This document shows positions 1 through 5,681 of a stretch of 34,908 nucleotides of DNA, piece by piece. The translations under genes and the position numbers were made by a program. The notes under the pieces were generated by a model. That model was given only the letters and a program-made list of their open reading frames with translations. It was not told the DNA's origin and made no database searches. The stretch is from Pseudomonas eutrophicaquae (lineage in GTDB: Bacteria; Pseudomonadota; Gammaproteobacteria; Pseudomonadales; Pseudomonadaceae): positions 1 to 34,908 of the forward strand of contig NZ_JAMJEZ010000024.1 of NCBI RefSeq assembly GCF_023544715.1, given 5' to 3'. How positions within the stretch are numbered: position 1 is the first letter of the stretch; the number at the start of each line of letters is the position of its first letter.

Positions 1-1
1 T

Positions 2-1501
2 CCCGATGATCCTGCCGCACTCAAGCTGTTGCTGAGCCAGTTGCAGGCGAAGGTTGCTCACCTGCAAGAAGAGAACACCCTGCTGCGCCAACGCCTGTTC
101 GGCCGCAAGTCCGAACAGACGCCGGATGCCGCGACACCGCAACTGGCGCTGTTCAATGAGGCGGAAAGCCTGGCCGCGCCGCTCGCTGACGACGCGGGTG
201 ACGCTGTCGAAGAGGCCGTCGCCCCCACCAGCAAACGTCGCGGCAAGCGCAAGCCGCTGCCAGCAGAGCTGCCGCGCGTCGAGGTGACCCACGAGCTGCC
301 CGAGCACGAACTGACCTGCGCATGCGGCTGCCGCAAGCACGTCAGCGGCGAAGAGGTCAGCGAGCAGCTCGAGATCGTGCCGATGCAGATCCGCGTGATC
401 CGCCACATCCGCAAGGTCTACGCCTGCAAGGGCTGCGAAAGCGCACCGGTCACCGCCGACAAGCCGGCCCAGCTGATCGAGAAGAGCCTGGCCAGCCCCA
501 GCGTGCTGGCGATGCTGCTGACCACCAAGTACGTCGACGGCCTGCCGCTGCATCGTTTCGAAAAGGTCCTAACCCGCCATGGCGTCGACCTGTCCCGGCA
601 AACCCTGGCACGCTGGGTGATCCAGTGCAGCGAGCAGCTGCAACCGCTGCTCAACCTGCTGCGCGAGCAGCTGCTGGAGAGCACGGTGATCCACTGCGAC
701 GAAACGCGGGTGCAGGTGCTCAAGGAGCCGGGACGGGAGCCGAGCAGCCAGTCATGGATGTGGGTGCGAACTGGCGGGCCGCCGGCTCGCCCGGTGGTGC
801 TGTTCGACTACACGACCAGCCGTGCGCAGGACGTGCCCTTGCGCCTGCTCGAAGGCTATCGCGGCTACCTGATGACCGATGACTACGCCGGCTACAACGG
901 CCTGGCTGCACGACCGGGCATCGAGCGTCTGGCGTGCATGGCCCATGCGCGGCGCAAGTTCATCGAGGCGCAGAAGGTGCAGCCCAAGGGCAAGACCGGG
1001 CGTGCCGATGTGGCGCTGAACCTGATCAACCGGCTATACGCCATCGAGCGCGAACTCCGGGACGCCAGCGATGAGCAGCGCTACCTGGGTCGACAGCAAC
1101 ACAGCCTGCCCATCCTGGCGAAACTCCAGGCCTGGCTGGAAAAGACTCAGCCTCAGGTCGTCCCACAGAGCGCCCTGGGCAAGGCCGTGAACTACCTGGC
1201 CAGCAATTGGAGCCGACTGGAACGCTACGTCGAGGCGGGCCATCTGCCCATCGACAACAACCGTGCCGAGAATGCCATCCGTCCCTTCGTCGTCGGCCGC
1301 AAGAACTGGCTGTTCAGCGACACGCCCAAAGGCGCCACTGCCAGCGCCCAGATTTACAGCCTGGTGGAAACCGCCAAGGCCAACGGCCAGGAGCCCTACG
1401 CGTGGCTGTGCCATGTCCTCGAGCGCCTGCCGCAGGCTCGCAGTCTGGAAGACTACGAAGCACTGCTGCCGTGGAACTGCAAGCCAGCGACAACAATGTA
1501 A
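2..1501 (+). CDS. tnpC: IS66 family transposase (TnpC), N-terminus cut by window edge
   Basis: The reading frame is open to the left edge, so the start codon lies upstream; the TTG at 29 is only an internal codon. About 499 residues are visible against roughly 510 for the family, so only a few residues are missing. Visible features, in order, are an N-terminal leucine-rich coiled coil, a basic linker, a zinc-binding segment with paired cysteines (CACGC, later CKGC), and the DDE catalytic core. The acidic residues lie in HCDET (codon 698-700), TDDYAGY (878-883) and NRAENAIRP (Glu codon 1268-1270). The C-terminus, ending near LPWNC, is typical of IS66. The protein cuts and joins the element's ends and looks intact over the visible part. 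It reads toward the truncated hsdS, which is on the opposite strand. Confidence 0.95.
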
Positions 1502-1509
1502 AACACTCG

Positions 1510-1530
1510 CCCCATCATCGGCAGATGGGG
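1510..1530 (+). terminator. Hairpin after the IS66 transposase gene
   Basis: A 7-bp perfect stem, CCCCATC / GATGGGG, with a 7-nt loop lies 9 nt after the transposase stop codon and just inside the element's right end. There is no T-tract, so it is a weak terminator candidate. It may instead limit read-through into or out of the element. Confidence 0.35.
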
Positions 1531-1542
1531 TTCATGGATCGG

Positions 1543-2334
1543 TTACACAACATCCCCCGGCTCGGCATAGCGCAGCGATCCCGCCATATCCTTTCTGACC
1601 CGAGAAAAGGCTTGTGTCGTGAAGGTGCCATACCGTGTGTATATCTCGCCGTAGTGAATCACACTGATGCCATCTTCGACATAGTCGGCCTTGGTGAAGC
1701 GCTTGCCGCGAATGAACTCACCAATCTCCCCCAGTGCCTTCCATTCGACATCCACACCATCAAAACTCAACAACTGGTCACGATAATGCTTGTATTGTTT
1801 TTTTCTGGCGGTCAGATCGGCGGTCAGATCGGCGGTCAGATCGGTGAAGGCGTCCAGAATGCGGACGATTTCGGCTTGGATTTCAAGCGATTTTTTCGGG
1901 TTTTCTGGGCAGGGTATTGGAATTGGATAGGCCGAAATTTTCTCTGTCGGTAGATGCGCTGGAATGGCGTCTGTTGCTAGAGATTGAATTTCGTTCTGCT
2001 GTTTTTTCAGATAATAGTAAAGGTACTTATTGTTGAGCGACTTGCCAGGCTTTATGCAATAGCAAACATCATTCGCCCAGAAGTCTGTTTCAATGATATT
2101 GACGAATCCGGCTGTGCCATATTTGACGATGGTGATCGTATTTTTCTTTTGATTATGGTTTTCGTAGAATCCCATGGGCGTAACGCCGCCGCTGAAAACT
2201 GGGTACTTCTTCTCAGGGCTCAACTCGCTTTTTGTCACACGACGTCCTCTTTCGAGGGTTGCGCATGACTCCAGTGGAAGCCACTCCACTTCAACGCCGT
2301 CGAGCAGCTTCTCGATAAACGCCAGTTCGCTCAT
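1543..2334 (-). pseudogene. hsdS: Type I restriction specificity subunit HsdS, truncated by IS66
   Basis: 263 residues remain of an expected 400 or more. HsdS recognises DNA for the type I methylase and restriction complex through two target recognition domains (TRDs) held apart by conserved helices. Visible here are the EcoR124I-like N-terminus (EKLLDGVEVEWLPL), TRD1 (about 20-140), the conserved IPIPCPENP segment, the spacer helix with three DLTA repeats (165-176), the KKQYKHYRDQLLSF segment, and only about 65 residues of TRD2. The frame then enters the IS66 end: the first IS base completes a GTG codon and the next three are TAA. The ATG overlaps the hsdM stop by 4 bp, so the two genes are translationally coupled. 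GC content is lower than in the flanks, suggesting transfer. The missing C-terminal part may lie beyond the IS. The fragment could still form a half-specificity homodimer (inference). Confidence 0.9.
1807..1842 (-). repeat. Three tandem 12-bp repeats in the HsdS spacer
   Basis: The unit GGCGGTCAGATC occurs three times without a mismatch (1807-1818, 1819-1830, 1831-1842). On the coding strand it reads GATCTGACCGCC, giving DLTA three times at HsdS residues 165-176. This matches the position of the 12-bp, TAEL-encoding repeats of EcoR124I-type hsdS, where two or three copies set the distance between the half-sites. Confidence 0.95.
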
Positions 2335-3890
2335 GCGTCTGCCTCCTCGCCTTCGATCTCGGCGACGATGGCGTCGATCTCGCTGCGCAGCTGGTCGATC
2401 CTGGCCACCGTGGTTTTCAGTTCGGCATTGAGCTGGGCAATATCCACCACTTCGCGGTTGTCCTTGGCTTCGACGTAGCTGCTGACCGACAGGTTGTAGC
2501 CGTTGGCCGCCACCTGCTCCAACGGCACGGACTTTGCGAAATGTTCGACGCTTTCCTTGCTGTCGAACACAGCCATGATCTGCTCGATATGGCTATCCAG
2601 CAGCGTGTTGTTGTTGGTTTCTTTCTTGAACAGCCCGCTGGCGTCGATGAACTGGGTGGTGGTGTCTTTCTTGTTCTTGGCCAGCACCAGAATGTTCACG
2701 GCGATGGTGGTGCCGTAAAACAGGTTGGGGGCGAGCGAGATCACCGTTTCCACATAGTTGTTGTCCACCAGGTACTGGCGGATTTTGGCTTCCGCCCCGC
2801 CGCGGTAGAAGATGCCGGGGAAGCAGACGATGGCGGCGCGGCCCTTGCTGGACAGATAGCTGAGCGCGTGCAGCACAAAGGCAAAGTCGGCCTTGGACTT
2901 GGGCGCCAGTACGCCGGCCGGGGCAAAGCGGTCGTCATTGATCAGCGTCGGGTCGTCGCTACCAATCCACTTCACCGAATACGGCGGGTTGGAAACGATG
3001 GCATCGAACGGTTTGTCATCGCCAAAATGCGGCTCGATCAGGGTGTTGCCGAGCTGGATGTTGAACTTGTCGTAGTTGACGTTGTGCAAGAACATATTCA
3101 TCCGCGCCAGGTTGTACGTGGTGTGGTTGATTTCTTGCCCAAAGAACCCGTCTTCGATCAGGTGTTGGTCGAAGTGCTTCTTGGCTTGCAGCAGCAGCGA
3201 GCCAGAGCCGCAGGCGGGGTCATAAATCTTGTTGACGCTGGTTTGCTTGTGCATCGCAAGCTGCGCGATCAGCTTGGACACATGCTGCGGCGTGAAGAAC
3301 TCGCCGCCCGACTTGCCCGCGTTCGCCGCGTAGTTGGAGATGAGGAATTCGTAGGCATCGCCGAACAGATCAATGCAACTGGCGTCGAAACCGCCGAAGT
3401 CCAGCTCCGCCACGCGTTTGAGCACTTTGGACAGGCGATCGTTCTTGTCTTTGACGGTGTTGCCAAGGCGGTTGCTGGTGGTATCGAAATCGGCAAACAG
3501 GCCTTTGATGTCGCGCTCGGAGGGGTAGCCGTTGGCGGAGGCTTCGATGGCGGCAAAGATGTTGGCCAGATCGGTATTCAGGCTCTCGTTGGTGTTGGCG
3601 TTGGCCGCGACGTTAACGAACAGCTGGCTGGGGTAGATGAAGTAGCCCTTGGTCTTGATGGCGTCATCTTTGGCAGCCGCAATGTTCGGATCACTGTCTG
3701 CCATCGCGGCGTAATTGACGGATGCATCGCCGCCGGTGATGTAATCGATGAAGTTCTCGCTGATGAAGCGATAGAACAGGGCGCCCAGCACGTACTGCTT
3801 GAAGTCCCAGCCGTCGACGGCGCCGCGCACATCGTTGGCGATTTGCCAGATGCGGCGTTGCAGTTCGGCGCGTTGTTGGATGCTTGTCAT
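2331..3890 (-). CDS. hsdM: Type I restriction-modification DNA methyltransferase HsdM (type IC)
   Basis: This 519-residue protein is the adenine-N6 methyltransferase subunit of a type I system; two copies join one HsdS to form the methylase. The N-terminus ([28 protein letters not shown]) is the HsdM helical domain and closely resembles EcoR124I as I recall it. The SAM-binding motif I is DPACGSGS (224-231) and the catalytic motif IV is NPPY (301-304). The C-terminal region, with a helical ending near [20 protein letters not shown], should pack against HsdS. Length is normal and there is no frame break. An AGGA Shine-Dalgarno sequence lies about 8 nt before the ATG. The gene is followed by hsdS with a 4-bp overlap; hsdR, normally third in this type, is not in the window. 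Confidence 0.97.
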
Positions 3891-4046: not shown

Positions 4047-5681
4047 TCAGGGAAGGCGATAGCGTGTGCCACTACGCACCCCCTCCTGGATCAGATTTCC
4101 CTCTTTCACCAGTTGCTCTACAGCTCGCCGCACACGTGAACGGGGAATTTCCAGCCCAATCCGCTGGTGGATGTTGCCAATCCTGGTGCCTGGGTAGCGG
4201 CCCACGTCTTCGACGATCAGCGCAGCCAGACGGTGCGGCTCGATGCGCTTGAGCGTGGTTTCGCCGGTGAACTGAAGGCTGTGCAGCAAGCCCGGATCGA
4301 CAAAGTAGCGCGTGGCCTGGGTACGCCCGGCGCTCTGCACCAACTGCCAGTCGAGCACGCGTTTGAGCCAGAGCTGAAGAGCTTCGACGCCAGGCAGCTC
4401 CAGCATGCTGGCAAGCTCGCGGGCGGTCAGCGCATCGTGCTGGGCCAGCAGGCCCAGGGCAATACGCTCACGCTGGGTGAGTTGATAGGTCTGGTCGGCC
4501 TTGGCGATGAAGTCGATGACCTCGGGCTTGAGGATACGGCGGCGCACCGTGACCTGCACGCGGTCGTGGGTTTCGATCAGCTCCGGCATCGGGCGACCTT
4601 GCGACAGCAGTACCTCGAAGATCTTGTCGAAGCCGCTGCCTTCGCGTTCCATCAGTTTCAGGTCGTGGAACAGGCGGGCCAGGTGCTCGTTGCGGCGCAC
4701 TGTGGTGTGCAGTACGTTCTGCGGTGTGACGCCCAACGGCAAAGGTCCGGGGTTGACTACTTCCAGCCGGTCCGGATGCAGGTTCAGGAAGATGTCGCCA
4801 CGCTGGGTGTAGGGGCGGTGTACCAATGCGTTGACCAACAATTCGCGCACCACGATTTCGTCGAAGGCGGGTACGTTCTGGCGGTACAGGCCATCGGGCA
4901 GCTCGTAGCGCTCACGGAAGTCTGGCACCTCCTGCCAGACCGCTTCGATCAACTCCATCGGGCTTTGCGTGTGGTCGTCCCATACCAGCTTGTTGACCTT
5001 CTGGCCAAGCTCGTCGTACTTGATGAACTGGATGACTGGCGCCGTGGTCAGTTGGGCACGCTGGTGCTGGCGACCAAGGCAGAGCACGCCCAGGTTGGTG
5101 AGGGCCTGTCCTTGCGCGAGCTGATAGTGCTCGAGCAGTTCGTCGTCGGACTTTTCCTTGACCGATGCCTTGACGCGGTCTGATGCGCGGAGGGCTGCAA
5201 GCAGCTTGTCGCGTTTGCCGGTATCGACCTCGGTGCGCGGAGCATGCAGTGTGGTTTGCGTTTCCCACGGCAATGCGGACCGTTCACTGGCCAGACGCAT
5301 CACGTCATCGCCGGTGACCGGCTTGCTTTGGTCGGCCACACGCAGGAAATAGCGGCCGTCCGTGGTGGAGGCGACGGCCATGGCGCGCGGAACACGCAAT
5401 TCTATGTACTGGCCACCATTCGGGGCGGTGACGACATCAGGCAGCACCGCAACGTTGACGGTGCGCTCGGCCAGCTTGCGCCGTAGGGTGTCAGGCAGGT
5501 CGCTGGGGATGTGCTGGCCGGCGGGCGGCGCATCCTGGCCATCCTCGATGCCCAGCAGCAGGCGACCGCCGGTCGCATTGGCAAAGGCAATGCAATCTTT
5601 GGCGATTTCGTTCCAGTCTGCTGTCTTGTCCGTCACTGCCCGCAAGGACTTCTGGTCGAGGAGCTGTCCTTCCTGACTCAT
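4047..5681 (-). CDS. AlbA_2 (Schlafen-type) and GHKL-ATPase domain protein, putative regulator
   Basis: This 544-residue protein has the layout of the 'ATP-binding putative transcriptional regulator' family. At the N-terminus (about 10-130) is an AlbA_2/Schlafen-type domain, with the signature NEIAKDCIAFANATGGRLLLG leading to a GIEDG turn. In the middle (about 270-380) is a GHKL-type ATPase region with LLVNALVHR (the N-box asparagine) and later REGSGFDKIFE. The C-terminus (about 400-544) holds winged-helix-like repeats (LTARELASMLELP, then IGLEIPRSRVRRAVEQL). The family's biochemical role is poorly known; DNA or RNA binding with ATP use is inferred from the domains. Such genes are often found inside type I restriction loci, and this one lies 156 bp upstream of hsdM on the same strand. 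The SD is GAGGAAGG before the ATG. It could act as a regulator of hsdMS or as a separate defence factor. Confidence 0.85.
   Translation of the reverse strand: MSQEGQLLDQKSLRAVTDKTADWNEIAKDCIAFANATGGRLLLGIEDGQDAPPAGQHIPSDLPDTLRRKLAERTVNVAVLPDVVTAPNGGQYIELRVPRAMAVASTTDGRYFLRVADQSKPVTGDDVMRLASERSALPWETQTTLHAPRTEVDTGKRDKLLAALRASDRVKASVKEKSDDELLEHYQLAQGQALTNLGVLCLGRQHQRAQLTTAPVIQFIKYDELGQKVNKLVWDDHTQSPMELIEAVWQEVPDFRERYELPDGLYRQNVPAFDEIVVRELLVNALVHRPYTQRGDIFLNLHPDRLEVVNPGPLPLGVTPQNVLHTTVRRNEHLARLFHDLKLMEREGSGFDKIFEVLLSQGRPMPELIETHDRVQVTVRRRILKPEVIDFIAKADQTYQLTQRERIALGLLAQHDALTARELASMLELPGVEALQLWLKRVLDWQLVQSAGRTQATRYFVDPGLLHSLQFTGETTLKRIEPHRLAALIVEDVGRYPGTRIGNIHQRIGLEIPRSRVRRAVEQLVKEGNLIQEGVRSGTRYRLP

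Follow-up and report, generated by a model that had tools for sequence, protein, structure and literature searches.

The locus at the start of the window (the whole stretch of DNA analysed, 34,908 nucleotides, corresponding to the entire contig C16 of the Pseudomonas eutrophicaquae genome with its 57 contigs and 2.55 Mb) raises the question of whether an hsdS gene cut by an insertion sequence is simply dead or encodes a subunit of altered specificity. On the minus strand, hsdS is read from 2334 to 1547 and the insertion sequence ends at 1546, in agreement with the earlier note, which had placed the right end of an IS66 element there. The window start falls inside this element, the 3' part of which (1–1546, plus strand) comprises a TnpC frame (2–1501) plus the right end; the transposase was assigned to the IS66 family by NF033517 (E 3e-144) as well as by PF03050, PF13817, PF13007 and PF13005. 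When the genome was searched with the IS end, the left end turned up where contig C6 (locus L019) terminates; on this contig, the IS left end adjoins the 8 bp ACAACATC, next to which come the remaining hsdS and, after a gap of 92 bp, an hsdR that is complete with 1032 aa. The right terminal inverted repeat (1521–1546) is identical to this left end in 26 of 26 bp, and the target-site duplication ACAACATC (1547–1554) has its second copy at L019:4333–4340. Features typical of an IS66 insertion are thus present, namely an 8-bp target duplication, GTAA ends with a perfect 26-bp terminal inverted repeat, and an IS66 TnpC. Joining the flanks by script with one copy of the duplication yields a single frame of 404 aa, which is the length of EcoR124I HsdS (PDB). 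An IS66-family element is inserted into the second target recognition domain (TRD2) of a type IC (EcoR124I-like) hsdS of 404 codons; a chance arrangement is ruled out, since the 8-bp duplication is exact, the joined gene stays in frame over 404 aa and a congener (L027) has an uninterrupted homologue.

The division of the assembly into 57 contigs, with the IS being a repeat situated at contig ends, could mean that C6 and C16 are not neighbours and that the gene is whole in the cell. This is hardly credible, however, given that matching 8-bp duplications are found for two separate IS copies (the second copy having its left end on C26, its right end on C24 and a matching duplication of its own, GATTAGCC), that the gene is in frame across the flanks, and that neither of the two hsdS matches in the assembly is an uninterrupted copy. 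A third IS left end is located on C10, for which no right-hand partner was found in the same assembly.

The truncated hsdS (1543–2334, minus strand; PF01420, E 2.1e-25; EcoR124 HsdS 7bst_A, E 2.9e-47) encodes 263 aa. Its codon 263 reads GTG at the IS junction, the final G being the first IS base, and GTC in the joined flanks, both specifying valine; the TAA stop codon at 1545–1543 (minus strand) is supplied by the IS end. Since residue 263 of the joined flanks is valine as well, the product contains no foreign residue, and comparison with the 404-aa frame identifies every residue as native. The valine codon completed by the first IS base, the adjoining TAA and the 263 residues left had all been correctly described before. 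Likewise, hsdM (2331–3890, minus strand; 519 aa; TIGR00497, E 4.6e-197; EcoR124 HsdM 7bst_D, E 4e-282) is complete and overlaps hsdS by ATGA, which bears out its description as intact and coupled to the fragment.

HsdM scores 939 bits to 7bst_D versus 314 bits for the next family and HsdR scores 1854.6 bits to 2w00_A, both proteins matching their EcoR124 counterparts far better than other solved families. HsdS, read from both flanks, has the order TRD1-D1-TRD2-D2 with TAEL-type repeats in D1. Judged by these similarities, the system belongs to type IC restriction-modification (EcoR124I family). Beside hsdM, the window (4047–5681) encodes a protein of 544 aa that contains both a Schlafen AlbA_2 and a HATPase_c_4 (RecG C-terminal) domain, possibly the product of a regulatory or defence gene. 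A different type I hsdM with a two-domain hsdS is located on contig C32 of genome G000 (L023), and contigs C20 and C27 of G000 encode two further HSDR_N proteins. In locus L084, a gene for an AAA_13 protein is located between hsdS and hsdR (1033–2193; PF13166), and such genes likewise follow hsdS in L026, L028, L029 and L041; this AAA_13 protein is presumably the PrrC anticodon nuclease of type IC loci. The hsdS–hsdR region on L019 contains no AAA_13 gene.

What the fragment retains was determined by alignment and structure prediction. TRD1 extends over about residues 19–139 (1918–2280, minus strand). The central conserved helix D1 (residues 152–191; 1762–1881, minus strand) is complete, 31 of its 40 residues being identical to EcoR124I D1 without any gap, so that the central repeat tract has the EcoR124I length despite the presence of three exact 12-bp copies coding DLTA (1807–1842, minus strand). 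The TRD2 stub comprises residues 192–263 (1546–1761, minus strand), whereas the remaining TRD2, D2 and hsdR are found on C6 (L019). The earlier note was right about the retention of TRD1 and the central helix with its repeats, but put the remainder of TRD2 too low at a third or so, as 72 of 161 residues (45%) are kept with the domain limits set in this analysis. In the fold predicted by a model built from 28 sequences, block pLDDT is 87–96 over residues 11–160, a stretch that includes TRD1, and 69–77 over residues 161–190, while it is mostly 41–70 in the stub; on this prediction, TRD1 folds confidently, D1 fairly and the TRD2 stub poorly. Foldseek ranks HsdS chains first (1ydx and 7bst_A), which adds little, the rmsd being 9 to 14 for both over the flexible stub.

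Homodimeric enzymes with half an HsdS (half-S) are marked by a D1 and a D2 alike enough to replace each other. D1 and D2 of the 404-aa frame share 21 of 40 residues (score 89 vs a shuffle mean of 1.8, sd 7.6) and those of EcoR124I 23 of 40, so this degree of likeness is given here; also present is the remaining half-S anatomy, i.e., complete TRD1 and D1, a TRD2 cut short and an intact hsdM. HsdS(1–263) would accordingly be expected to consist of folded TRD1 and D1, the rest forming a loose tail. Two such subunits could then zip via their D1 helices and hold two HsdM (M2S'2), and this complex would methylate a symmetric site composed of two TRD1 half-sites, with the methylated adenines 7 nt apart by the precedent of EcoR124I with its equal D1 length. 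Every step after the truncation is inference, and we give an even chance to the truncated HsdS working as a homodimeric methylase with new symmetric specificity. The locus is thus a candidate for the homodimeric half-S enzymes, a group for which methylation at a palindromic site is the deciding feature. The precedents for such enzymes are EcoR124I-delta50, EcoDXXI::Tn5 and the natural NgoAV, all of type IC, which are described as TRD1-D1 homodimers acting on palindromic sites in the review by Loenen et al. 2014 (PMC3874165). In EcoR124I-delta50 and EcoDXXI::Tn5, according to this review, the methylated adenines retain their original distance from each other. The self-pairing of a transposon-truncated EcoDXXI HsdS on a palindromic site, invoked in the earlier note, is therefore a genuine precedent. 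An engineered half-S of S. aureus CC398-1 also methylates, albeit with poor restriction and a spacing increased by one (PMC6158711).

The suggestion that the insertion altered specificity and did not abolish it is plausible and partly supported by this anatomy and these type IC precedents, but has to be set against the S. xylosus HsdS N-half, for which, expressed without the second S subunit of that system, PMC10030836 reports no methylation. That case favours a plain knock-out, in which the subunit is unstable or unable to hold two HsdM, an outcome that would leave the system inactive and the locus at the onset of decay. The 72-residue stub points in the same direction, being poorly predicted and longer than in precedents of calculable length. 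On the other hand, D1, TRD1 and hsdM are complete, and truncations of this kind are tolerated in closely related type IC systems, in one case with part of TRD2 left (PMC3874165). A knock-out is accordingly regarded as a serious possibility of somewhat less than even probability.

Even if methylation works, restriction may be off, because hsdR lies behind the IS. The half-S would in this case modify its symmetric site as a methylase only, the IS parting hsdR (beyond the element on contig C6) from the hsdM-hsdS transcript. A terminator-like hairpin of the IS end (1510–1530, minus strand; 7-bp stem and T-rich tail), situated just past the stop codon on this transcript, would agree with such a loss. 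It is weak evidence, since such sites are common by chance (3 in 1.2 kb scanned vs 1.2 expected; fold z -1.76, with 12 of 200 shuffles equally good). The promoter scan before hsdR returned one weak match vs 0.5 expected, which would fit the same loss and is not used as evidence. Against it, hsdR is a complete 1032-aa frame and may own a promoter that a consensus scan cannot exclude. Loss of restriction with retained methylation is considered a real though rather unlikely possibility, its probability being contained in that of the half-S explanation, of which it is a sub-case.

The frame of the stranded hsdS 3' part stays open into the IS left end (L019:3906–4415) and encodes 166 aa if read from an ATG located in the IS. 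This open frame, used from that ATG or from an inner start, could provide a C-terminal fragment that joins the N-terminal one within TRD2 and brings back the old asymmetric specificity. EcoDXXI S halves made separately do restore wild-type activity, but both contained complete TRDs (PMC3874165), whereas the break is inside TRD2 here; furthermore, no ribosome-binding site was recognized by eye before the ATG in about 50 IS bases. Such a rescue is therefore judged very improbable, and the homodimeric half-S is retained as the preferred reading.

The age of the insertion bears on how the intact neighbouring genes can be read. Another species of the genus (L027) has an uninterrupted 412-aa homologue before hsdR, the C-terminal half of which is the same, and the stranded hsdS 3' part is identical to it in 435 of 435 nt. 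The identical tract spans 900 bp (15 bins of 60 bp) from about codon 214 of hsdS to about codon 78 of hsdR; outside of it, identity to L027 is 73–93% in the hsdM bins (-680 to -80) and 83–97% further into hsdR. The tract corresponds to window 1547–1695 together with L019:3574–4340 and covers TRD2, D2 and the start of hsdR. The TRD2-D2 module thus seems to have been exchanged across species not long ago, and it is this tract that the IS entered. Since the stranded 3' part is undecayed, the insertion is evidently recent, too young for decay or selection to be visible, and the intact hsdM and hsdR are therefore no evidence of function. The recent date of the break, together with the lack of any sign that the truncated hsdS is under selection, also fits the knock-out.

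Whether such insertions recur was assessed in a survey of 109 hsdS loci, 29 of them obtained by family search and 80 kept from 570 named relatives. Blastp on these loci yielded 113 HsdS-like ORFs, 14 of which, from 12 loci, are shorter than 330 aa. Ends or surroundings were read at about 9 of the 12 loci with short ORFs, ORFs of at least 330 aa being left out; the loci read are L064, L093, L084, L041, L077, L068, L087, L133, L096 and L123. The search needs D1, so that insertions in D1 would be missed. In a further search, 16 of 369 genomes of the class matched at E 1e-15; the locus reading leaves out interrupted or partial ones among these 16, e.g., G356 and G379.

A Bacteroidetes MAG (L093:3186–4115, CAILLK010000150.1) carries a complete hsdM followed by an hsdS cut at about codon 264, to which the IS adds a short tail, giving a product of 279 aa in all. 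On another contig (L136:1–530, G299:C21), the far end of this IS adjoins a second copy of the 8 bp GGAGAAAC; the remaining part of hsdS and codons 1–435 of hsdR come next. The transposase end matches the IS66 C-terminal element with E 3.6e-6 and 27.5 bits, just below the cut-off of 30. The locus is probably another natural case, besides that of the window, of an IS66-family element lodged in TRD2 of a type IC hsdS. In Paracoccus (L084:1–240), an IS66-family end was read from one flank inside TRD1 (E 5.8e-9, above the cut-off). IS elements accordingly hit type IC hsdS in nature more than once, in both TRDs. A preference of the IS for TRD2, which would hint at selection for half-S, is not shown, as the L084 end sits in TRD1. 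An Enterobacteriaceae MAG (L077:1–60) has a non-hsd stretch at a similar place as in L084, which by eye looks like an IS end.

Of the 109 loci, the one with the TRD1 most similar to that of the window (66% over 119 aa) belongs to a Sulfurospirillum MAG (L064), where a natural 184-aa half-S of one TRD and one helix is followed by a KilA-N gene and hsdR, a finding in favour of the half-S reading. The same genome also encodes a 367-aa HsdS after a rhuM gene elsewhere, so the half-S may not act alone. L064:1–1603 and L135:46–2153 (G300, one Sulfurospirillum genome) comprise two rhuM-hsdS units with the 184-aa half-S and the 367-aa HsdS, respectively, the RhuM end before the former being judged by eye. 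The best TRD1 relatives among the 109 loci are L064 with 66%, L070 with 60% and L091 with 50%, none with a known specificity from which the half-site could be predicted. In L041:1682–1899 (G061) and L042 (G186), a long run of AAGC tetranucleotide units separates D1 of hsdS from the second TRD, the N half and the C half being coded in different frames in the present sequence; slippage in this run could switch between half and whole HsdS.

One may go further and propose that, in nature and more than once, IS elements have converted type IC systems to half-S enzymes of new symmetric specificity, a proposition we rate somewhat short of even. If true, the window locus and L093 would be two independent wild counterparts of the Tn5 experiment of 1993, and transposition would be a route of specificity change, beyond loss alone. 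If the fragment is active, a wild bacterium would have acquired an altered DNA methylation pattern, and perhaps altered immunity, through a single transposition; the laboratory event of 1993 would then have its equivalent in nature, and an hsdS gene that looks broken should not be taken for non-functional as a matter of course. The literature searched, the coverage of which is partial, revealed no natural IS insertion in hsdS for which a change of specificity has been shown, and absence from print is not claimed. New are the natural IS origin, the product without foreign residues, the second independent case (L093) and the module exchange; already known is the homodimer idea, put forward for a frameshifted hsdS of Acinetobacter baumannii (PMC3602452).

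That hsdS, from strain D1279779, resembles the present one as a natural truncation, differing in that it arose by a frameshift with no IS; the homodimer is there a proposal, too. NgoAV of Neisseria gonorrhoeae is likewise a natural truncated type IC HsdS (208 of 410 aa), active according to PMC6789123 and PMC9577141, with the palindromic site GCA N8 TGC; its truncation results from a reversible phase-variable poly-G frameshift leaving 208 aa, in contrast to an IS and 263 aa here. EcoR124I-delta50 (Abadjieva et al. 1993, via PMC3874165) is alike in family, D1 length, D1 sequence (31 of 40 identical) and size, about 160 of 404 aa missing and about 244 aa left vs 263 aa; it is unlike in being a deletion mutant with another TRD1 and with shown activity (GAA N7 TTC). 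In EcoDXXI hsdS::Tn5 (Meister et al. 1993, 'Macroevolution by transposition', cited via PMC3874165), likewise a type IC system, transposon insertion into the C-terminal TRD has left TRD1 and D1, and the product forms a homodimer on TCA N8 TGA. This was a laboratory event with Tn5 and shown activity, whereas the window locus carries a natural IS66-family insertion with putative half-S function and a shorter D1 repeat tract (EcoR124I length). The locus would, at best, work like the EcoDXXI::Tn5 and EcoR124I-delta50 enzymes, and appears to repeat in nature what is known from the laboratory.
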